Positions 25,725 to 63,608 of a stretch of DNA of 64,000 nt are shown in pieces. A model generated the notes under the pieces. The model did not search any database and was not told the DNA's origin. It worked only from the letters and a program-made list of their open reading frames with translations. The DNA comes from Mesaphorura yosii (lineage: Eukaryota; Arthropoda; Collembola; Poduromorpha; Tullbergiidae), in the NCBI GenBank assembly GCA_009869945.1, contig WIXG01000297.1, positions 33,430 to 97,429 on the forward strand. Direction: 5' to 3'. The position numbers were made by a program, and so were the translations under genes. Numbering within the stretch: position 1 is the first letter of the stretch; each line of letters begins with the position of its first letter.

Positions 25725-27513
25725 TTATGCTTGATTTCTCTGCTTGAAGAGTCTTGCGTATCTGTCCGTCAAAGGCGAGACATCCCGCAGGCATTTCCGC
25801 TCATTGAGCAGCGTGTGGGCCAGCGATCGATGCTTGCTGCCTGATTTGATGGCTGCAATCAGGAGGAGCTGGTAAAATACGTCCCGTTGAGCGTGGCTCC
25901 CGCCTATGTCGATAATGGAGTGACGAACAGGGTACAACAGCTCCACGGTCTCCGCGTACCGGCCTTCGTTGTATGCGATCATGGCTCGGAGCAGTGCGCT
26001 GGTTACATGCACCGTCTGCACATAGTTCAATTTTGACTCCGAACCCGGTTTGTTTGCTTGGCGCGTGCAATTGGTCAGCAGCGTCTGCACCGCTGCCGCC
26101 GCCGGATTCTCCTTCGTCGTCTTCGTCTTCGCATTTAAGAGCGCCATCATGAAGTGTACATCGTTAAATCCAAGTATCTGATCATGTAGATGCGGCTCGC
26201 AAATTTCGTGCACATCCGCCCATCGTCCAGACAGATTGAAATCGCCGGTGCCACTTCCGTCAAGATCCCGAGCCAACTCCAGGCGGTACAGCAACGAGGT
26301 CGCGTCAACAATGTCGAGCATTCCTCCAGACGCTTTGGCCCGTGGGATGATCTGTGAGTCGAAGACTCCGATGGCTACGTCCAACTCTCCGCGCTCGACG
26401 TGGTACAGGCCAAGATGCCAATAGTTGTGGCAGGCGAGGTAGTTGGCGGGCGTCCAGTCAGCCACGGTACCGTTCAAGTAGGAGATTCCCGCTTCAGTGC
26501 GGCCTTCCATCTCGAATACGTGGGCCAGCGAGTGAGTCGACCATGCATCACCGGGATTTAGCTCCAATCCCTCAAAGAAGTCATAAAATTAAGCCAACCG
26601 CCAACTTAAACTAGAACTGATAGGTAATTAATCTACTAATCTTACCGTCCGTGCCTCGCGCTCCGCCTTTTCGTATAAATTTGTCTCCTCCAGCCCAAAC
26701 GCAAGCATTCCATGCAAGTAGCCAGTCAGAGGAAGCTGGCTTGCTCTGGATTTCCATATTGGTAGCACCCTCGCGACAGAATCGCGAATTTGGACGGAGT
26801 CCCCCATGTAAAAGTAGAGGTCATGCACCACCTTCAGGGCGTGGACGTCGGTGGGGTGCTCCGCCAGAATCTCCTCGTACACCACAGCCGATTTATCGAG
26901 CTCACCCTTCGCGAAGAGCAGGACCGCCTGCACGTGCTTGTATTCGCGACTGTTGAGCTTCGTCTTCGGAACTGTTTCAAGAAACTCGATATCTTTTTTC
27001 AGTTCCGGATCCGTTTGGACGGAGACAGCAGTTCCGAGCAGTTTGAGGCCGGCGGATAAGACACGTGCCATTACTGAGAGAACGATAGAAATTACTTGAA
27101 TCTTCAGATCAAAGGTCGGGATCGGGGATTTTCGTTTTTTACCAAATTCTGGGTCAGAACCGAGTAATTTTTCTAGCGTTCGTTCCAGGCCGTCGAGCTG
27201 TGGATCATCGTACCACCCCACGACCTAAGAAATGCAAAGTACGCACCAGCGTGAGCACAACTTCTTAATAGCACTGATAATCTAGAGCATTGGATCCGAT
27301 CAATTTTCAAAATTACTTGAGTAATTGCCGCATCGTAGAGTTTACCGGCTTCGTTGGACGTGGTCGAGAACTCGAGGCCTTCGGATCTCCATTCCTGCAC
27401 AGCATAAAACGAACCAGCGTCAATGATGTCCAATGAAATGAAATCTTCTAATCAATTCCTTTATTCCTTCAACACAATCGAACCTGCAAATCTCTCCAGT
27501 TATGCTGCCTCAT
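25725..27513 (-). CDS. TTC38: Tetratricopeptide repeat protein 38
   Basis: Five exons, 27513-27484, 27394-27317, 27224-27143, 27073-26646 and 26570-25725, total 1464 nt (487 residues), close to the length of animal TTC38. Characteristic blocks in order: EFSTTSNEAGKLYDAAITQ, EKLLGSDPEFVMARVLSAGL, DVHALKVVHDLYFYMGD, LELNPGDAWSTHSLAHVFEM, ANYLACHNYWHLGLYHVERG and IGGSHAQRDVFYQLLLIAA. The start is a 10-residue first exon (ATG at 27513); its donor GTTCGA and the acceptor gtgcag place the intron exactly before the conserved EWRSEGLEFSTTSN block, which the longer unspliced frame would not. The family is a conserved TPR-like protein of poorly known function. Confidence 0.94.
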
Positions 27514-28123: not shown

Positions 28124-30378
28124 TTACTTATTAGGCGGCGCTTGATCGTCGTCGCCGCCCGACAGTTGCGCGACCAACATCTTGAACTGAGGGCGCTCGT
28201 ACTTGCTCCAGCTCCAGCATGCCTTCATGATTTCGTATCTGTAAAGGACAAGCGCAGAATTTAATGAGAAATTTTAACGAATTTTACGAGTTTCTGTCCC
28301 AAAGTTTGAGAAATCATGTCACCAGTAAACGAGCACGAGCTTACATGAAATCGGGCGCAATCTTCGGCTGCAGGAGTCTCAGGCCATTCTCCAGCTCCGA
28401 CACAAAATCCAGCGACCACGACCTGCCGGGGTACGGAATGTCTCCGAGGCTGAATACTTCCCAGATGGTCACTCCAAAGGCCCAGATATCAGACTCGGTC
28501 GAAAAGCTCATTTCACGGAGTGACTCGATGGCCATGTGGCGCCAAGGTAGCGGAGCCTGTTGCTTCTTGACGTAGTTGGTGTAGTCGTATAGCTGGCGTG
28601 ATAGGCCAAAGTCTGTGATTTTCGCTGTGAGGGTGGAAGTTAGGAGAACGTTGCGTGCGGCTAGGTCTCCATGAATTACTTTCTTCGACTCGAGGTACTC
28701 CATACCCACGGCAATTTGGCGACACCAATTGACCAGTTGACCCGTCGTGATCGAATCGGCGTTTTGATAGTCCCTGACCCAAAGTCAAAGCCAATCAAGT
28801 GGTAAGGCCAGGCAATTAATTTAATTAATTGATATTCTTGCTTACTGGGCAGCAGTGTTTTGGTAATCATGAGCCGGGCCCGCAGTAACACACTGCTTGC
28901 GACTCCTCAAATAATTCATGAGGTCCCCGAGCTCACAGAATTCCACGACGATCAGCAGTATGCCTGAGAGGAATGTACACTTGTATTTACGCAAATGAAA
29001 AAGCTGGCTTTGGGCACCGCACAAGAAATTATTACCGCCCAGCCTTGGCCTTACCATTGTTCAGTCCGTTCGTCACCGCCCCGATGAGTCCAACAATATT
29101 TGGACATTTCCCCAGGTAAATCATAATCTTCAGCTCACTCAGGAGTGCTTTGATGTACATTTTATCCGTGTTGGGCTTCACAGCCTTGACTGCAACTGGG
29201 GCGCCGTAGCCAGTCAACTCCGCTCTAGTCACAAAACCATACTGGCCCTCGCCGAGGATCTTCGTGTTGTCGCACTTGAGTTTACCCATTGGGATGTCGT
29301 AGTCCTTATTGTAAGGCATGTACTGAATGTTTTCATGCAGAGGAGCCTGATCGTCGTCGGTATCTCCGTTGCCAGCGCCCTTGTGCGCCTTCAGCCGGTC
29401 AGGAATCCCTTCACGAAACTCTCGGATTTCTGCCTCCGTGAGCCCGTTCAGTTTGAGCAGAATTTGCCTAAAGTAGTACGCAATCGAGGTGCCGATCGCC
29501 GCCAGAATGGCGAGTGGGAGCCCGATGGCGAGGGCGTACGACAAGGCGCTCATGCCGCCGCCTGGCTTAACGGTCAGGTGAAACGTTTGACTGCTCTGTC
29601 TGTAGAAATTGCGGGCGTTACAGATGTAAAGTCCGGCATGGTATGCCCTCACGGTTGGAAAAATAAGTCTCACTGTCGGCAGAGGCTCTTGCGTCATTGT
29701 TTGGTTGCGCAGCTCATGAAGAGCATTCCGGTCGTACTCCCACGTCAATTCCGGCGGTGGAGTTCCGTTCCCTCGACAGTAAATATACTGGTCATTTGTT
29801 CCGGCCGTGAATGTGATATTGAACGATTCCCCTCTCGCCTCCAACAGCGTGATGGTGGGCACCGTTGGCTGAGGCGTCACCGTACAATTGTCTAAGTATT
29901 TGTACTGGTCTAGGTTCTTTTCCTTGCACCCACGGACCCAGCCGTTCCAGGCCTTGAACGGGGTATCCGTGCTCTTCTTGATTTCGAGGGCACATGCCAC
30001 GTCGTCGGTGATGTCCTCGTCGAGGAAGTCGGAGCAATTATTGTTGCAGGGGGTCTTAAGGTCGCCATTTTTACTGGACATGTCATCCTCGCACCACCAA
30101 AGGTTGTTGATCTGGAACACGCCGTAGCTCCTGCTGGTTGGGTCTTCGGATGCTGTTGTCTGTAGCGAGGAGTCGATGCCCGAAAGCTCTTCTGCGGCGC
30201 AGATCCAGTCGCCGAGACGTGCCCAGTCCTCTGAGCCGAGGAGGGGTTTGAGTTTTGTGGCGAACTCACATCGCGACAGACGCTTGGCTGAAACGAAGGC
30301 AGGATCAAGGCTAAGCCGAAGGTGGGTGAAGGTGATTATGCAGAAGAATATAATCGATTGCACGCGCGTCTCTGGCAT
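28124..30378 (-). CDS. Receptor tyrosine kinase with C-type lysozyme-fold plus Ig ectodomain
   Basis: Four exons, 30378-29055, 28963-28846, 28773-28345 and 28238-28124, total 1986 nt (661 residues), all junctions in frame. Order: signal peptide (1 to about 30); C-type lysozyme/lactalbumin-like domain (about 31-165) with all eight family cysteines in register (SRCEF, WICAA, LWWCED, TPCNNNC, VACAL, VRGCK, DNCTV) and YGVFQINNLWWC; an Ig domain (YIYCRGNG ... LTWEY ... AGLYICNAR); a TM helix (ALAIGLPLAILAAIGTSIAYYF); a split tyrosine kinase domain: GEGQYG loop, VAVK lysine, SELKIM, hinge [45 protein letters not shown]. The hinge and insert style is that of PDGFR/VEGFR/Kit-type receptors. In the lysozyme fold the catalytic Glu35 position is Leu and Asp52 is Ser, so hydrolysis is unlikely; glycan binding is plausible. 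The kinase HRD motif is HGD and APE is AIE, but the catalytic Asp/Asn/DFG and Lys remain. The fusion lies within one long exon, so it is not an annotation artefact of joining neighbours. Confidence 0.93.
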
Positions 30379-30978
30379 TCTTCACCTGAGCAAGTTACCG
30401 ACTGAAATGTCCTTCAAACAAAACGAGGAGAGGCAAATCCAGAATCTAAACTAACGCACTTGTGCAGTTGCGATCTGAGCGAACGCGAATTGCAAATTGC
30501 GAAATCCATTCGAGAGGCATTCGGAAGAGGAGACCACGGGACCAGGACCAAACATGACCACAACATCCAGGAAAACAAATTCGTTGATTTTATTTCAATT
30601 TTGCATTCCTCGAAATGGATTCTAATTAAACCGTATCTTGTCTTCACAATTTCATGCAACAGAAACCAGAAGCCTAGGTCATAACTCATAAATCTTATAT
30701 ACTAATCGCATTTTAAAGGTGGCATGTGCATGATTCTTGTTGTGCCAACTGTCCTTGATCTTCGGACCAATGCACAAGGCGACAAGCGAAAACGTCTCCA
30801 AATCAAAGCAGCAACGCCACGTTCCGATTAATCAAATCATCCGGTTTCCTTTCACTGATTTCAATTTCGCTGTTCTCACATTGACAGGCATCTCTCGCTG
30901 GGTGCGCCGCGTTGGCACTTTAATGACGTTAATCTGGCGACCCCAGCAACAAACTGTAAAAATGGATCAATTGTCGGT
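30379..30978. other. Intergenic, divergent promoter region
   Basis: About 0.6 kb between the start of the lysozyme-receptor kinase (-) and the first cysteine-rich peptide (+). Short open frames on both strands show no recognisable family. Confidence 0.4.
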
Positions 30979-31374
30979 ATGGCTGAACTCAAACTGGTTT
31001 TGCTGGCTCCATTGTCTTGCATAATCACAATCTTGGTCGTACCCCGTTCTGCTGCTCCGACGGCGGAGTTCGCGGACGACTTCGATACAATGTGTCAAGT
31101 CCTGCATTGCAGTGAACGGGGTTTTTGTACCCTAGAATTGGTAGATAATTTTATGTGAAATGATTTCAGAACCCGTTATCGAACAATGGTGGTGGCGAAT
31201 TGGGACGAAACAGACGAGGCTTCTTCACCAAAGCAACTGATTGCCGAGGCCAGTGCTTGAACCTTCTGGTATCGGAACCCAAGAGGGAAAGTAATGGGCC
31301 CCACGTATTGCTACGAGGTGTGCGTGAGGAAGAATGACTGCGGTGGGCCCATGAGAGGCTCGATTTTCATTTAG
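30979..31374 (+). pseudogene. Decayed small secreted Cys-rich peptide gene (copy 1)
   Basis: ATG at 30979 opens a signal peptide (LVLLAPLSCIITILVVP) and a short segment with two cysteines (MCQVLHCSER). A tttcag acceptor near 31170 leads to a second coding segment with DCRGQC. The continuation with TYCYEVCVRKNDCGG is in another frame, so at least one frameshift separates the two CxxxC motifs. The layout (signal exon, then C-x3-C ... C-x3-C) matches the neighbouring copies at 31687, 32522 and 44455. Likely a broken paralogue; an unrecognised intron is the alternative. Confidence 0.45.
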
Positions 31375-31686
31375 CTCTCCAATCGCCATGTTTTGACAGT
31401 TACGGTACGTGTTTTTGTTCGATTCTCTTACCTTATTTGTAGGCTACCTTCTACTTTACCAGTATACTTAATTAATTTAATTTTTAGACTATAATTTCGA
31501 GTAGTTCACTGCTAAATATAATTATGAAGAATTGAAAACATGCTCCGATTGACGTTTTTTACTTCCGGCATCCAAGATTTGTCGGCTCCATCCGTTTCTT
31601 TTCAACATGGCGACCAACACCAAACTGTTAGAATTTAGCATTTGCCAAGGAGGAAGTTGGACGATCTTCTTCTAGAACTCCAGTCC

Positions 31687-32094
31687 ATGTTGTTCAAGAT
31701 GATCAAACTTCTGCTGTTGGCTTCCCTACTAACTCTCGTCTGCATGGACAGAGCCACAGGTTTTTGGCGTTGACATCGTTATTGGGCAAGTCCCATTGTC
31801 ATAGCCCAAGGCAGAATTACCACGAACAAATTCCAAGCAAGCGTAAGCAACTTAGTCATTTCTCTTAATAATAATTCATAATTCGTAATTTAGCATGACG
31901 TCGTCAGTGACCGAGTGATGAGGAGACACCTTCGTGGGGACTGCTACGGTGACTGTAAAGTGCAGAGAATGAACGGACAGGCAAGGGTGATGACGGACTG
32001 AGGCTACTGCTACAACGTCTGCATCAGGAACTGCAACAGGAGATATGGAACTCCCTGCTTCGACTACTATCGAGGTGACCGTAGCTTACTCTAG
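31687..32094 (+). pseudogene. Secreted Cys-rich peptide gene with one in-frame TGA (copy 2)
   Basis: Three exons with good GT-AG sites and matching phases: 31687-31759 (signal peptide, core LLLLASLLTLVC), 31805-31842 and 31894-32094. The final exon is 67 codons and is open except for one TGA at 31999-32001, lying between the two CxxxC motifs CYGDC and CYNVC. The part after the TGA (CIRNCNRRYG) matches the intact neighbour (CNRHCNRNYR), so the coding potential beyond the stop is real or recently was. Either a recent nonsense mutation, an assembly error or stop readthrough; I class it as a pseudogene by default. Function unknown; small disulfide-rich secreted peptide. Confidence 0.6.
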
Positions 32095-32521
32095 TTCGAA
32101 TTAAGATCCTATTGAAATCTGAATTAACGAACGTATTCAGCGATGTAACTAAATGAAGCAAGCGTGTATTTTTTCCGCCATTCGCCATGCCTTCCTGTTT
32201 TGGAGTTGAAGGTATCCTGTTTATGTTTACGAAAAAAATGATAATGAATCCTGCCTTCGGCAAACTAGACTAGACGAATGACACGTTCACTTTGGTTTTG
32301 ACTTGAAAGAGCCCGCCAATGGGCGGCTCCACCGTTCATTATTGTTTCCATCTTGCATCTTGCATTGTGTGACCTTGTAGTACTGGTAAACTTGCTTTTT
32401 GACACGAGTGAAGGACAAACAGAGCAAAAAAAATAAATTACTTGAGCTCCAACTTCTGCATGAGGCACTCTAGTCGAATTATTCGTCGAATCGGGTGATC
32501 GGGTGATCATTTTCATCAACA

Positions 32522-32908
32522 ATGAAGGCGCTTCTGTTTCTGCTGCTCGCGTCGCTTCTGGCTTGCTCCTGTACCGGCGAGGTGCAGGGTTTACAGGGTG
32601 ATAATGGCCCGATGTACAGGGACCAGTACACCGGCATAAGTCCCAACCCGTCCGGACCAGCGCCAATTTTTAAATCTCAGTTAACGCTAACTCTTGTCTG
32701 AATTGAATAATTGCAGAATCAGCTCGCACGACAGCGTGCCATACGCGACAATCTGATGGACGGCTGCTACGACGCCTGCCGGATGCGAGCCTGTCGCACG
32801 AGTTACGACCAAGATTATGAGGCGATGCGCGGTGGCTATTACTACCGACAGTGCAACAGGCACTGCAATAGAAATTACAGGAAGATCAAGCCGTTCATTA
32901 TGCACTAG
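32522..32908 (+). CDS. Small secreted Cys-rich peptide, paired CxxxC (copy 3)
   Basis: Exon 1 starts at ATG 32522 with a signal peptide (ALLFLLLASLLACSC). Exon 2 runs from 32717 (after ttgcag) to the TAG at 32908 and encodes the mature domain with CYDACRMRAC, a Tyr-rich linker and CNRHCNRNY. The spacing is C-x3-C-x4-C, about 18 residues, then C-x3-C. Exon 2 needs a phase-0 donor; GTGCAG at 32582 immediately after ...CTGE satisfies this, while the stronger-looking GTGATA at 32598 would break frame, so the exon 1 end is uncertain. Paired CxxxC motifs suggest a helical-hairpin type disulfide fold. Likely a secreted defence peptide; the family is unrecognised. Confidence 0.6.
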
Positions 32909-33464
32909 TTTCTGCTCCGCGATTGAGACCTGTATCGCTATCCTTACTGGTAGTCAGTAGTACAATGTGCAAGTAGCAGATTAACGAATTAATGTATTCT
33001 TATATCATCTATTCAAAATTAAGGGAATCATCTGCGAGTAAATTCGATTATATTTGTGAAGGAAGAAAGTGTGTGTCCGAAAGATGCGGATGTGGACAAA
33101 GGAATATCAGTCAACGAAAATGAAACTGAGAATTTCTCGGAATTCATGTTTCAATTTCAAGTTTCGATAGGCGCGGCGGTGAATGTGATAGATTTGAAGC
33201 AGGCAGATGAGCTCATTTGACTGACAGTCACTAACTTTGGACTAACAGCGCTAATTATCAATTATGTAACTGATCAAATCCAGTAATTCATCCTTTGCTG
33301 AAGACTCAGGCAGATTTAGCAACGGACAATAAGTGATCAGCGATCTGGAAGACTCATATCAGGATAAGTACGGTTATTTTAATTTATGACGATCAACTTA
33401 ACTGAACTGAGCTGCATTGATATATCTGTTGTTTCATTAATTTCAGGTATAGTATCCGTGCATA
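32909..33464. other. Upstream region of zinc-finger gene A
   Basis: About 0.55 kb without a coding frame. A ttaatttcag acceptor just before the ATG at 33465 suggests a spliced 5' untranslated leader. Confidence 0.45.
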
Positions 33465-52052: not shown

Positions 52053-55422
<3,370 letters not shown>

Positions 55423-58346: not shown

Positions 58347-58739
58347 AAGCGAAACTCAAGACTTTAAGCATCTCTCTCATCAATTCCCACCACCCAATTA
58401 TAACCAAACTTGATTAGTGGTCAAATTTATACGGTAGTTAACGAACACAATTGCGACATTCTGCGATCATTCGATATATTTTCCAAGAAATCAGGAATTA
58501 AAGTTAGTATGATTTTTACATTTCGACATGACTGTGGGGGAGAACACGGTGAAATGTCTAGCATGGGGAAAATTGGTATTTTCAAGGCAGGTAATTTTGG
58601 TAATTGGCAGTCCATCTACTCTCATAAAGCCTGATTGGCACAATCGTTGGTAGTTTAATTAGTTCAACTCTCATCACACCTAATTCGCATCAGCGCATGC
58701 TTTCTGTTTACTTTTTCCCTGTACCTTTTGTTTTCAGAA

Positions 58740-61700
58740 ATGGATCCCGTTTCAAGCGAGGCACAAAGGTGTAGGGCCAATGAGTCCTCTGATAAACGCG
58801 CTCATAGATTATCGCAGAAGCGAGCTTCTGATGCACGTCATCGGGCCAATGAGTCCTCTGACGATCGTGCTAAAAGATTATCTCAAAAACGCGATGCTAA
58901 TGCACGTCGTCGGTCGAATGAGTCTGTTGGTGAGCGAGCTCACAGATTATCTCAACAGCGAGAATCTGACGCTTTTCGTCGGACCAATGAGTCCGCTGAT
59001 GACCATGCTCACAGACTATCGCAACAGCAAGAAGTTGATGCACGTCGTCGGACCAATGAGTCTGTCGATGTCCGTGCTCATCGATTATCTCAACAACGAG
59101 ACGCAGACCAAAGGAGACGTACTGTTAGACCTCGAACTCATAAAGCAGCAGTCAACGCACTCGCTCACCTAGATGAATCTAACATTAATGAACATTACAT
59201 TGGTGCAATGACATCTGAATGTGATGGTTGTGGTGCGCTGCATTTTGGAGAGAAGCCGAGATCAGGCAAGTTCAACATTTGTTGTGCGAATGGGAAGGTG
59301 GATCTACCACCTATTATTTCTCATCCGAGAATTGTGTCATTAATTAGTGACAGGCAAAATCCCGATTATGGCCATTTCAAGCAATGTATTAGGCGCTATA
59401 ACAGCGCATTGGCATGTGCATCAATGGGTGCGAAGGTAAAGCCACCACCTGGTAACGGCCCGTACTGCTTCCGTATCCAAGGACAAGTTTACCATGTGAG
59501 TGGACCACTGCACCCACACCAGGGCGATGTCCCTACGTACGGGCAGTTATACATTCTTGATCAGGACGAGGCGTCTGACATCAGAATGGCTAACAACAGC
59601 GAATTGCACCGGCAATTGACGCTGGAGTTAAGTAATCTATTGCGCCAAGTTAATCCTTCAGTTCGGGCTTACATGATGATGTATGAAGTTGAGAATGAAC
59701 AGCGACGGCTCAATGAAGCCAGCACCCCACGAGTGGTAATGACGATAGTACGAGACACAAGGGATGATCAAAGGCGTTATAATGCGCAAAAGGTCAATGA
59801 AGTAGCCATGGTCTTCGTAAGCGAAGACGGTGAATTACCTTCGACTCGGGACTTGATAGTGTACAAAAGAAGTACAAATCGAACTGAGCGAATTAGCCTG
59901 ATTCATGGCCAACTTGATGCAATGACATACCCAATTTTTTTCCCATACGGTTTCAAGGGATTCACGGATGGCCTCGGATACTGTCAACGCACAGGTAGAA
60001 GAGGTAATATGAGTATGTTGGAATTCTACAACTACTACCTTGCTATTCGGCACTCATTTAATCCGCTTCATTATGGCGGTCGTCTGTTCCAACAGTTTGT
60101 TGTTGATGCTTACTGCAAGATTGAAGGTAGCAGGCTACATTATCTACAGCTAAATCAAAAGAAATTCCGGCATGACAAGTTAGCAAACTTGAGACAAGAT
60201 TTAGCCAATGAGCAGCCTGCTAGAATATTAGGCGGAGAAGTAGTCCTCCCTTCCTCCTTCGAAGGAAGTCCAAGAAACTACAGTCAAAGATATCTTGATG
60301 CAATGGCAATTTGTAGTAGATTTGGAAATGGTCAAGCAGACCTTTTTATTACTATAACCTGCAATCCATCATGGAAAGAAATAACTGACAATTTGCTGCT
60401 AGGCCAAACAGCTGCCGACAGACCAGATTTAACTGGGAAAGTTTTTATGATGAAATTGAAGGATTTGCTCCATGACATCTTTCAAAAGCAAATACTCGGG
60501 AAGTGCATTGCTTATATTTACTCAATTGAGTTCCAAAAGCGTGGGCTACCTCATGCTCACATATTGATCATCTTGGTAAAAGAGGACAAGTTGAAGACTC
60601 CAGAACTGGTTGATCAGGTAGTCTGTGCCGAAATCCCGGATCCAGACACCCATCCTAGACTGCATAATATAATCATGAAAAATATGATTCATGGACCATG
60701 CGGAAAATCCAACCCGATAAGCATTTGTATGCAAGATGGGAAATGCAAGAAGAAATTCCCAAAGACATTCAAAGAAGCTACAAATATTGGTCAGTCTTCG
60801 TACCCAGAGTATCAAAGACGAGACAATAAAAAATCTTATAAAGTTCGTGATATTGATGTTGATAATTCCTGGGTTGTTCCGTACAACCCATACTTATCAC
60901 TTAAATACAACTGCCATTTGAATGTTGAAATTTGCGCCAGCATCAAGTCGGCCAAATATTTATTCAAATATGTTTACAAAGGCCATGACAGAGCTCATGT
61001 AGAAATTCAACAAAATGATGAGCAGAATCCACGAGATGAAATCAAGCAACACCTTGATGCACGATATGTTGGACCTGTTGAAGCATGTTGGCGACTATTT
61101 AAGTACCCAATGCATGGTCAGTCGCATTCGGTTCAGAGACTAATTATACATCTCGAAGGACAACAAACGGTCAGGTTTGAGGATGATGTTGATGAATTCG
61201 AACTCTATCACAACGCAGAAATTGCTGCGCAGAGGAGTCACGATACTAATACTACCCTAACTGCTTGGTTCAAGTTGAATCTAGAGGACCAAAGTGCAAA
61301 CCAATATCTCTACACTGAGATTCCAGAACACTATACCTTTGTCAAGCGAGAAGGATATTACTGGAAGCGACGAGTTCAAGCATGCAAAACCATTGGCAGG
61401 ATGTACAACGTAGGCCCCAATGCGGGCGAATTGTACTATCTCAGAATGCTTCTATTACATATCAATGGTGCTACCTCATTCGAATATCTTCGTACAGTCG
61501 ATAGTGAGCTTTGTGCAACCTTCAAGGAGGCATGCATTAAGCTACACTTACTTGAAGATGACACTGAATGGGACAAATGTCTGACGGAGGCTGGTGCAAT
61601 TAAAATGCCCCGTCAAATTCGTGAACTTTTTGCGCTAATATGTGCATTCAATCAACCATCCAGTCCCCTCGCATTGTGGGAAAAGCACAAAGGTGCTATG

Positions 61701-63608
61701 GTTGAAGATTATGTCCATAAGGACTTGAACTTTCCTTACGATCGTGGGTTGCACGATATTCAAGATGTTCTTATTGGACAAGGAAAAACTTTGCACGATT
61801 TCAATCTGCCCCAACCAATTGATGTTACCGCGGCAGAGAATGAAATCGATGCACAAACTAATCAACGTGAAGCCGCCAGACGGGTTGATATGTTGAACTC
61901 AAGGCAAGCCTTAGCCTATCAAAGAATCATGGACGCCGTCAGAGATGAGAATAATCCTGATAGGCTCTTCTTTGTTGACGGACCTGGAGGTTCAGGCAAG
62001 ACTTTCCTGTATGAGACACTCTTCTACGAAGTCTCAGGGCTTCAACTACATGTAGATTGCGTAGCGTCAACTGGCATCGCAGCTACATTATTACCATTTG
62101 GTAGAACCGCACATTCTGCTTTCAAAATCCCGATTCCAATTTTTGAAAAGTCTGCCTCATCCCTGCGGCCTACATCCAAAGCTGGCAAAGCGTTATGTGA
62201 CACAAAACTAATATTATGGGATGAATGCACGATGACTCAATGGAAAGCTTTGGATTTTGTCGATAAGGTATTGCGTGAGTGTAGTGGCAATGACCAACCA
62301 TTTGGTGGTAAAGTTTTACTACTTGGTGGAGATTTTCGACAATGTTTGGTTGTAGTCCCACAAGGAAACAGGGCACAAATAGTTGGTGAGAGTATTTTTC
62401 GTTCAAAACTGTGGCCGAAATTCAACTATTTGGAACTTAGAACCAACATGAGAGTCCGTAATGATGACGGAACTCATCGTGATTGGTTACTACAAATGGG
62501 TGATGGCACACTAACATGTGATGTCCAAGAGCCCGCTGACCTTATTGAGGTCCCACCGGAAATGGTTGAACAAGGTAACCTGGTGGAGTCGATTTTTGGA
62601 AAGTACATACCTGTTGCTGATGTGAAACACCTCAGTTCTAGGGCTATATTGGCACCAAAGAACGAGGATGTGTTCAAGCTGAATAAAGATGTGCTTAATC
62701 GACTGGAAGGGCCCTCTAGAACTTATGCAAGTGCTGATAGCATTTCATCTGATAACCCGGCTGAAGCACAGGAGTACCCAATTGAATACCTTCACGGGTT
62801 AACTCCAAGTGGCATGCCATTGCACAACTTAGAACTCAAAGTTGGTGCAATTGTAATGCTACTGAGAAACTTCTGCTCAACCAGAGGTTTGTGTAATGGT
62901 ACAAGATTAGCCATTGAAAAAGTGCAAAACAACTTGATTATAGCCAATGTGCTTACTGGGCGGTCAAAGGGCCAAACAGTGTTCATACCGCGGATTAACC
63001 TGGTACCCTCGGCAGGGAATTCTCCAGTCCCATTCAAGAGAAGGCAGTATCCGCTTTCCTTGGCATTTGGCATGACGATTAATAAATCGCAAGGCCAACA
63101 ATTTTCACATGTGGGGATCTTGCTGCCCTCGGAAGTTTTCTCTCATGGGCAATTATATGTTGCATTTTCCAGAGGGCAGTACAGAGAGAATATCAGAGTG
63201 CAAGTCGTTACAAATGGTACGCAGGGCAGACTCATTCAAAACTCGAACCGTGTATTTACAAGGAACATTGTATATCGCGACGTGTTTGTTGAAGCACGGC
63301 AGCGTCTTCGAGATAGAATTCCCGCGAACGAAGTGGAAATAGATCCATTTAATGAATCACTTGACTTAGGGGACATCAACATGGACGACTGGGAAACCAA
63401 AAATGATGACGACCATCCAATGGACGAAGTCATATTTGCCAATTTATTCCCAGAGTCAGTACCCGTGAACGACTCGGTAGTCATGATTGGCTACGGACCC
63501 AATGGGGTCGAGTATGAACCAGCTCCACATCATTATACTCATGGACCACAAGTGTTCGACATTCATGGCAATTTGTTGCCAGTGAATGAGAATCGCCAAC
63601 GACAATAA
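58740..63608 (+). CDS. Helitron RepHel transposase with five N-terminal STPR-like repeats
   Basis: Single open frame of 1622 residues from ATG 58740. Residues about 12-126 are five 23-residue repeats (see repeat entry). Then the Helitron-like N-terminal domain, the HUH Rep nuclease with HAH in KRGLPHAHILI, the paired tyrosines in AKYLFKYVYKG, and a Pif1-type SF1B helicase: Walker A GPGGSGKTFLYETL, Walker B LILWDECTM, GGDFRQ, and the C-terminal block GMTINKSQGQQFSHVGILLP with YVAFSRG. It nicks DNA, transfers strands by rolling-circle transposition and unwinds DNA. No stop codons or frameshifts were seen, so it is likely functional or very recently so. Codon use is more AT-rich than in the host genes nearby. 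Confidence 0.95.
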   Translation: MDPVSSEAQRCRANESSDKRAHRLSQKRASDARHRANESSDDRAKRLSQKRDANARRRSNESVGERAHRLSQQRESDAFRRTNESADDHAHRLSQQQEVDARRRTNESVDVRAHRLSQQRDADQRRRTVRPRTHKAAVNALAHLDESNINEHYIGAMTSECDGCGALHFGEKPRSGKFNICCANGKVDLPPIISHPRIVSLISDRQNPDYGHFKQCIRRYNSALACASMGAKVKPPPGNGPYCFRIQGQVYHVSGPLHPHQGDVPTYGQLYILDQDEASDIRMANNSELHRQLTLELSNLLRQVNPSVRAYMMMYEVENEQRRLNEASTPRVVMTIVRDTRDDQRRYNAQKVNEVAMVFVSEDGELPSTRDLIVYKRSTNRTERISLIHGQLDAMTYPIFFPYGFKGFTDGLGYCQRTGRRGNMSMLEFYNYYLAIRHSFNPLHYGGRLFQQFVVDAYCKIEGSRLHYLQLNQKKFRHDKLANLRQDLANEQPARILGGEVVLPSSFEGSPRNYSQRYLDAMAICSRFGNGQADLFITITCNPSWKEITDNLLLGQTAADRPDLTGKVFMMKLKDLLHDIFQKQILGKCIAYIYSIEFQKRGLPHAHILIILVKEDKLKTPELVDQVVCAEIPDPDTHPRLHNIIMKNMIHGPCGKSNPISICMQDGKCKKKFPKTFKEATNIGQSSYPEYQRRDNKKSYKVRDIDVDNSWVVPYNPYLSLKYNCHLNVEICASIKSAKYLFKYVYKGHDRAHVEIQQNDEQNPRDEIKQHLDARYVGPVEACWRLFKYPMHGQSHSVQRLIIHLEGQQTVRFEDDVDEFELYHNAEIAAQRSHDTNTTLTAWFKLNLEDQSANQYLYTEIPEHYTFVKREGYYWKRRVQACKTIGRMYNVGPNAGELYYLRMLLLHINGATSFEYLRTVDSELCATFKEACIKLHLLEDDTEWDKCLTEAGAIKMPRQIRELFALICAFNQPSSPLALWEKHKGAMVEDYVHKDLNFPYDRGLHDIQDVLIGQGKTLHDFNLPQPIDVTAAENEIDAQTNQREAARRVDMLNSRQALAYQRIMDAVRDENNPDRLFFVDGPGGSGKTFLYETLFYEVSGLQLHVDCVASTGIAATLLPFGRTAHSAFKIPIPIFEKSASSLRPTSKAGKALCDTKLILWDECTMTQWKALDFVDKVLRECSGNDQPFGGKVLLLGGDFRQCLVVVPQGNRAQIVGESIFRSKLWPKFNYLELRTNMRVRNDDGTHRDWLLQMGDGTLTCDVQEPADLIEVPPEMVEQGNLVESIFGKYIPVADVKHLSSRAILAPKNEDVFKLNKDVLNRLEGPSRTYASADSISSDNPAEAQEYPIEYLHGLTPSGMPLHNLELKVGAIVMLLRNFCSTRGLCNGTRLAIEKVQNNLIIANVLTGRSKGQTVFIPRINLVPSAGNSPVPFKRRQYPLSLAFGMTINKSQGQQFSHVGILLPSEVFSHGQLYVAFSRGQYRENIRVQVVTNGTQGRLIQNSNRVFTRNIVYRDVFVEARQRLRDRIPANEVEIDPFNESLDLGDINMDDWETKNDDDHPMDEVIFANLFPESVPVNDSVVMIGYGPNGVEYEPAPHHYTHGPQVFDIHGNLLPVNENRQRQ
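58773..59117 (+). repeat. Five 69-bp coding repeats (23-residue STPR-like)
   Basis: Five consecutive 23-residue units beginning R-[ATS]-N-E-S, with internal RLSQ[KQ]R and ending AR[RH]-type residues. The period equals that of the score-and-three peptide repeat (STPR) DNA-binding domain of silkworm FMBP-1, and the pattern (NES ... R..RLS..R ... RR) resembles it. Confidence 0.75.

Follow-up and report, generated by a model that had tools for sequence, protein, structure and literature searches.

A predicted PVR-type receptor tyrosine kinase with a lysozyme domain lacking both catalytic residues in the collembolan Mesaphorura yosii

Tobacco CHRK1 is a receptor kinase whose chitinase-like domain is inactive because a glutamate is missing (PMC10573068; this paper and the others cited below are drawn on in excerpt), and by analogy it is, together with the LysM receptor kinases, the nearest published precedent that we found for the gene described here. 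In crustaceans and the fly, the receptors of the platelet-derived growth factor/vascular endothelial growth factor receptor (PVR) class are described with two to five immunoglobulin (Ig) domains (PMC11024359). Here, we analyzed 64,000 nucleotides of DNA from the collembolan Mesaphorura yosii (contig WIXG01000297.1, positions 33,430 to 97,429 of the forward strand), hereafter the window, which carry a gene, RTK1, that joins a C-type lysozyme domain without its two catalytic residues to one Ig domain, a transmembrane (TM) helix, and a tyrosine kinase of the PVR type. Short of an assembly error, we are nearly certain of this receptor tyrosine kinase (RTK) with a dead lysozyme domain. The original prediction, made from the letters of the DNA alone, had already read the gene as an RTK with a lysozyme ectodomain, and this reading holds along with the gene model; the dead active site, a calcium-type loop, the type of the kinase, and a second unusual RTK in the same window are additions of the present analysis.

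Among the titles and abstract openings listed from a partial collection of openly licensed papers, none describes an RTK with a lysozyme domain, and databases may well contain orthologues that have not been annotated. The word "lysozyme" is absent from the main texts of PMC9953206, which has a table of ectodomains for the 20 human RTK subfamilies, and of PMC8662651, PMC10263333, and PMC11024359. What we regard as new is the PVR-type RTK with a lysozyme ectodomain; the kinase type itself is known.

Gene structure, domain layout, and kinase class of RTK1

The four-exon spliced gene was predicted with exact coordinates (Table 1). Its three introns of 91, 72, and 106 bp are all of the GT-AG type, and the spliced frame is open over 661 codons. 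It had also been claimed that the lysozyme, Ig, and TM parts and the start of the kinase lie in a single exon and that the fusion is therefore real in the genome, which is borne out by a first exon of 1324 bp in one frame. Because these parts share one exon and one frame, the joining of the domains is independent of the splice prediction. The exon comprises 441 open codons with significant matches to three unrelated domains in a single frame, which excludes chance. The GC content at third codon positions is 0.71, 0.61, 0.69, and 0.66 in coding segments 1 to 4, and the GC content over all bases is 0.53-0.55 in these segments versus 0.36-0.46 in the introns; the figures are alike across the segments, so there is no compositional seam at the domain joints. 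A neighbouring gene was considered as the source of the lysozyme part, and a tblastn search of the window with the whole RTK1 protein listed no second match to this part up to E 10.

A domain search of the 661-residue protein, which had been proposed as a check, recovered all three expected Pfam families: Lys (PF00062) at residues 32-160 (E 2.2e-22, 80 bits versus a cut-off of 27), I-set (PF07679) at residues 198-270 (E 1.8e-7, 31.6 bits versus 23.7), and PK_Tyr_Ser-Thr at residues 372-649 (E 1.3e-76). The Ig_3 and Ig_2 models fell narrowly below their own cut-offs. Hydropathy windows above 1.4 were counted, and the signal peptide and topology were read from hydropathy alone; such windows lie at residues 6-27 and 273-308, and three more lie at residues 418-460 (maximum 1.61), which we read as buried strands of the kinase N-lobe. 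Pfam, the alignment of the cysteines, and hydropathy thus agree on the predicted content of signal peptide, eight-cysteine lysozyme, Ig domain, TM helix, and tyrosine kinase, and the plan is that of an RTK, with a signal peptide, an ectodomain, a single TM helix, and a cytoplasmic tyrosine kinase. The prokaryote library NCBIfam assigned no family to exon 1. In collections of viruses and prokaryotes, which carry little weight here, relatives of the exon 1 protein numbered none in viral contigs and 14 pattern matches, none of them confirmed, in genome contigs. Structure prediction without an alignment gave a mean predicted local distance difference test score of 33.9 for the exon 1 product and 39.9 for the lysozyme domain alone, and these models were not used.

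Table 1. Positions in the window of the features of RTK1 and of the second receptor kinase, RTK2
Feature	Position	Strand	Basis
RTK1 gene, 661 aa, four coding exons	28124..30378	-	Spliced translation, GT-AG introns, Pfam
RTK1 exon 1, 1324 bp: signal peptide, lysozyme, Ig, TM, juxtamembrane, kinase start; one frame	29055..30378	-	
Signal peptide region, residues 1-31	30286..30378	-	Kyte-Doolittle peak at residues 6-27, maximum 1.59
C-type lysozyme domain, residues 32-166	29881..30285	-	Pfam, PDB matches, residue map
Calcium-binding-type loop, residues 117-126	30001..30030	-	Alignment to 1qqy
Ig (I-set) domain, about residues 174-271, limits by eye; Cys201 and Cys253	29566..29859	-	
TM helix, residues 277-303	29470..29550	-	Kyte-Doolittle maximum 2.11
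RTK1 exon 2, 118 bp: kinase hinge and short insert region	28846..28963	-	Spliced translation
RTK1 exon 3, 429 bp: kinase C-lobe, catalytic loop HGDLAARN (28650-28673), DFG, activation loop	28345..28773	-	
RTK1 exon 4, 115 bp including stop: kinase end	28124..28238	-	Spliced translation
RTK2, 10 modelled exons, 840 aa: signal peptide, trypsin-like, LDLa, TM, kinase with HGDLAARN	52053..55422	+	

The kinase motifs of RTK1 are complete, comprising the glycine-rich loop (GEGQYG, residue 376), the lysine (VAVK, 395), the glutamate of helix alpha-C (SELK, 414), the HxD and asparagine of the catalytic loop (HGDLAARN, 515), and the DFG motif (535). Among the best 60 of 2294 PDB matches, the leading single-copy kinases are FLT3 (207 bits), CSF1R (206), and KIT (205), with VEGFR1/2 and PDGFR-alpha behind them. 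EGFR tops the PDB list but was rejected as the nearest kinase, because that entry holds two copies in tandem (124.2 + 9.1 bits each) and their scores are added together. The loop has HGD in place of HRD and so carries the HGDLA of the PVR class. Across four RTK classes of decapods, the catalytic loop is reported to vary only by having HGDLA for HRDLA, which occurs in PVRs with one shrimp exception (PMC11024359). Over the first 45 columns of the decapod consensus in that paper, RTK1 agrees with the PVR1, PVR2A, and PVR2B motifs at 29/43, 24/35, and 27/37 positions, the PVR motifs alone being scored. PVR sequences are counted in its Table 1 at 61 in two branchiopods, 17 in three hexapods, and 0 in two tardigrades. 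Judged by its sequence, the RTK1 kinase is of the PVR type, an assignment that rests on the PDB ranking and the crustacean nomenclature. Weighing against a broader use of the name, the PVR subgroup defined by sequence constraint in PMC8662651 was detected only in deuterostomes; for this reason, "PVR" is to be taken in the arthropod sense. RTK1 also departs from the several Ig domains of the class in having one Ig domain and a lysozyme domain.

The lysozyme domain and its possible ligands

RTK1 belongs to the C-type lysozyme family by its Pfam Lys profile and by the eight conserved cysteines, all of which align (residues 37, 60, 96, 111, 115, 129, 151, and 165). Among the best 60 of 458 PDB matches of exon 1, 2z2e (milk isozyme), 1qqy, 1el1, and 2cwi come first (E 6.6e-22 to 2e-21), followed by horse milk lysozyme 2eql; we take the first four to be the calcium-binding lysozyme of dog milk. 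Of the 127 residues that align with 1qqy, 50 are identical, as are 43 of the 128 that align with hen lysozyme. All three carboxylates of the calcium loop are kept, with Asp120, Asp125, and Asp126 aligning with Asp85, Asp90, and Asp91 of 1qqy, which presumably act as calcium ligands there. By these three carboxylates, the RTK1 loop appears to be of the calcium-binding lysozyme/alpha-lactalbumin type. Dog and horse milk are both named among the sources of calcium-binding lysozymes, and Glu35 and Asp52 are given as the two catalytic positions (PMC5104373). In RTK1, the equivalent of Glu35 is Leu65 (30184-30186) and that of Asp52 is Ser84 (30127-30129), so the residues of an active enzyme are absent.

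We compiled a list of 17 cleft positions. RTK1 keeps seven of them (Gln57, Asn59, Trp62, Trp63, Ile98, Ala107, and Trp108, in hen numbering) and has changed ten, namely both catalytic and eight non-catalytic positions. Since both catalytic residues are gone while the cleft tryptophans and the calcium loop stay, the domain is probably a binding domain and not an enzyme. Across the lysozyme-like family, Trp63 and Trp108 hardly vary whereas site 62 does (PMC5104373), which makes Trp62 the most telling of the three tryptophans. RTK1 keeps it, although it is reported to be replaced in four of the five lysozyme-like proteins of buffalo sperm; mouse SLLP1 is described as having a groove for glycans that resembles the one in lysozyme (PMC5104373).

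The reading that we consider most likely, with middling confidence, is that RTK1 derives from a PVR and uses its non-enzymatic lysozyme head to bind a glycan of N-acetylglucosamine (GlcNAc). The protein is a single-pass PVR-type receptor with one Ig domain and a distal C-type lysozyme with a calcium-type loop. The lysozyme fold would bind without cutting, and the central part of the cleft would most likely hold a GlcNAc-containing polymer, for instance fragments of chitin or peptidoglycan. Such a glycan, if multivalent, could then cluster two or more receptors so that their kinases trans-phosphorylate, and a PVR-like pathway downstream might lead to a growth, blood-cell, or immune response. 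The original prediction had suggested a direct coupling of peptidoglycan- or chitin-like glycan binding to tyrosine kinase signalling; this coupling is plausible, as it fits the loss of catalysis together with the seven cleft residues kept.

Several observations weigh against glycan binding. The ten changed positions include those of subsites A and D-F of the lysozyme cleft, which could mean that long glycans are bound only weakly. This objection is tempered by the dog-type lysozyme 1qqy, which itself differs from the hen enzyme at 3 of the 17 positions (34, 98, and 114), and by the glycine at site 37, which RTK1 shares with some non-testicular lysozymes (PMC5104373). LYZL5 retains Trp62 despite replaced catalytic residues (PMC5104373), and with Trp63 and Trp108 the least variable sites, the tryptophans are no proof of sugar binding. 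The same receptor might instead bind a protein through its lysozyme head, such as a secreted ligand, a lysozyme inhibitor, or a cell-surface partner, and we regard this as a serious possibility, somewhat short of probable. PVR-class receptors take protein growth factors as ligands, the cleft is altered at most of its positions, and SLLP1, a dead C-type lysozyme, has been reported in sperm-egg binding (PMC5104373). However, Trp62, Trp63, Trp108, Asn59, and Ala107 are kept, and a pure protein binder would have no evident need for Trp62.

We consider it improbable that the locus reflects an assembly error, a chimera of adjacent genes, or a copy in decay. The weak point of the gene model is its poly(A) signal, for which an AGTAAA stands 25 bases past the stop and the canonical AATAAA first occurs at 659 bases. 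Against an artifact stand the in-frame 1324-bp exon, the three canonical introns, the 661 codons without a stop or frameshift, the similar third-position GC content, and a second open RTK with a related kinase about 22 kb away. We give equally little credence to the lysozyme part being a neutral passenger, with the Ig domain and TM helix acting with a PDGF/VEGF-like ligand. In the PVR class, the Ig domains bind the ligand, and RTK1 retains one of them; on the other hand, the full set of cysteines and calcium-loop carboxylates suggests that the fold is maintained, and a lone membrane-proximal Ig domain is unlikely to form a complete ligand site. An active muramidase that cuts bacterial walls and reports them through the kinase is very improbable, for although the C-type profile and cysteines are present and Glu64 lies one residue ahead of the Glu35 position, both catalytic positions are non-acidic and a one-residue helix shift would turn the Glu64 side chain off the cleft.

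A second receptor kinase and the surroundings in the window

The tblastn search with the RTK1 protein also matched positions 53972-55213 (+) with E 5e-37, within a gene that we modelled as RTK2 by picking GT-AG introns by eye; its signal peptide and TM helix were likewise read by eye. The Trypsin match of RTK2 (E 2.6e-8, 34.4 bits versus a cut-off of 20.6) is partial, covering profile positions 59-157 of 220, and by our reading leaves out both the His57 and the Ser195 regions. No triad histidine was seen by eye in the splice form that we modelled; reading on past the splice donor at this place would give a glutamate. The LDLa match has E 1.5e-7 (31.9 bits) and the kinase match E 1.5e-61 (208 bits). 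LDL-receptor proteins lead the PDB search with the RTK2 ectodomain, in which proteases first appear at E 0.002-0.008.

Alignment of the kinase parts of RTK1 and RTK2 gives 125 identities over 307 residues and is poor in the N-lobe; there, the place of VAVK reads by eye as LLVL, and RTK2 possibly has no canonical VAVK lysine. Scored as for RTK1, RTK2 agrees with the PVR1, PVR2A, and PVR2B motifs at 24/43, 22/35, and 24/37 positions. Two of the three introns that each gene has in its kinase part are at common positions (column 126, phase 1, and column 354, phase 2), and 11 of the 12 introns of both genes measure 68-106 bp, the remaining one 228 bp. Related kinases and shared introns point to one kinase lineage with two unrelated heads, both bearing enzyme-derived domains, and the pair thus suggests ectodomain swapping on this lineage. 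In the crustacean survey, BLAST assigned the outgroup subclade of the PVR tree to the low-density lipoprotein receptors (PMC11024359), and these may be relatives of RTK2. A bolder idea, which we hold only tentatively and think rather unlikely, is that of a radiated family of PVR-derived kinases whose heads would be catalytically dead enzymes recruited from among the secreted proteins of digestion or immunity (lysozyme in RTK1, the trypsin-like domain with LDLa in RTK2) and which would serve an animal as direct tyrosine-kinase pattern-recognition receptors.

About 3 kb downstream of RTK2 lies a Helitron frame (58659-63605, +; open over 1649 aa) with Helitron_like_N, a PIF1 helicase, and N-terminal STPR-type repeats, a possible agent of gene shuffling. 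The neighbouring genes were sampled as 19 of the 109 stretches of at least 110 aa in the window, besides exon 1 and the two spliced proteins, and Pfam identified animal-like genes among them for V-ATPase subunit a, DOCK, PARP, anillin, and bHLH-PAS proteins. Upstream of RTK1 on the opposite strand, positions 30900-33000 (+) show by eye several short, secreted-looking frames with cysteines, for example 32507-32701 and 32711-32908, which resemble a small-peptide cluster. The next gene downstream of RTK1 (25725-27451, -) has the look of a tetratricopeptide protein, which we take to be of the TTC38 type; Pfam returned no match at E 0.001 for two of its frames.

Comparison with known systems

To our knowledge, animals sense bacterial wall sugars via peptidoglycan recognition proteins and Toll-type and NOD-type proteins, and not by an RTK that binds them directly. 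A lysozyme-headed RTK would make such direct sensing testable within one protein. The gene suggests that an ancient antibacterial enzyme was taken over to form the sensing part of a receptor. Considered along with RTK2, it also points to a growth-factor-receptor kinase lineage that has been exchanging its sensing heads for enzyme-derived domains.

RTK1 resembles the invertebrate PVRs in the sequence class of its kinase, the HGDLA loop, an outer Ig domain, and a single TM helix, and differs from those of crustaceans and the fly in having a lysozyme domain and one Ig domain in place of two to five (PMC11024359). With the calcium-binding lysozymes of dog and horse milk and with alpha-lactalbumin, it shares the eight cysteines and the three calcium-loop carboxylates; unlike the milk lysozymes, it is without both catalytic residues and is tethered to a membrane kinase. 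SLLP1/SPACA3, reported in sperm-egg binding, is likewise a C-type lysozyme in which other residues stand at both catalytic positions (PMC5104373), but RTK1 is joined to a kinase and keeps Trp62, where buffalo SLLP1 has a lysine. The Venus kinase receptors are another invertebrate RTK family with an unusual ectodomain (PMC3703292), although theirs is a Venus flytrap domain and their kinase is near those of insulin receptors (PMC4026697).

In CHRK1 and the LysM receptor kinases, a dead chitinase-like domain or a LysM domain that binds GlcNAc polymers lies outside and a kinase inside (PMC10573068), as a lysozyme and a kinase do in RTK1. They belong to the receptor-like kinases of plants and their ectodomains have unrelated folds; the likeness is one of analogy only. 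If RTK1 does bind glycans, it would be an animal parallel to these plant receptors, and the family of RTK1 and RTK2 would, if real, be a convergent counterpart to the chitinase-like and LysM receptor kinases of plants.
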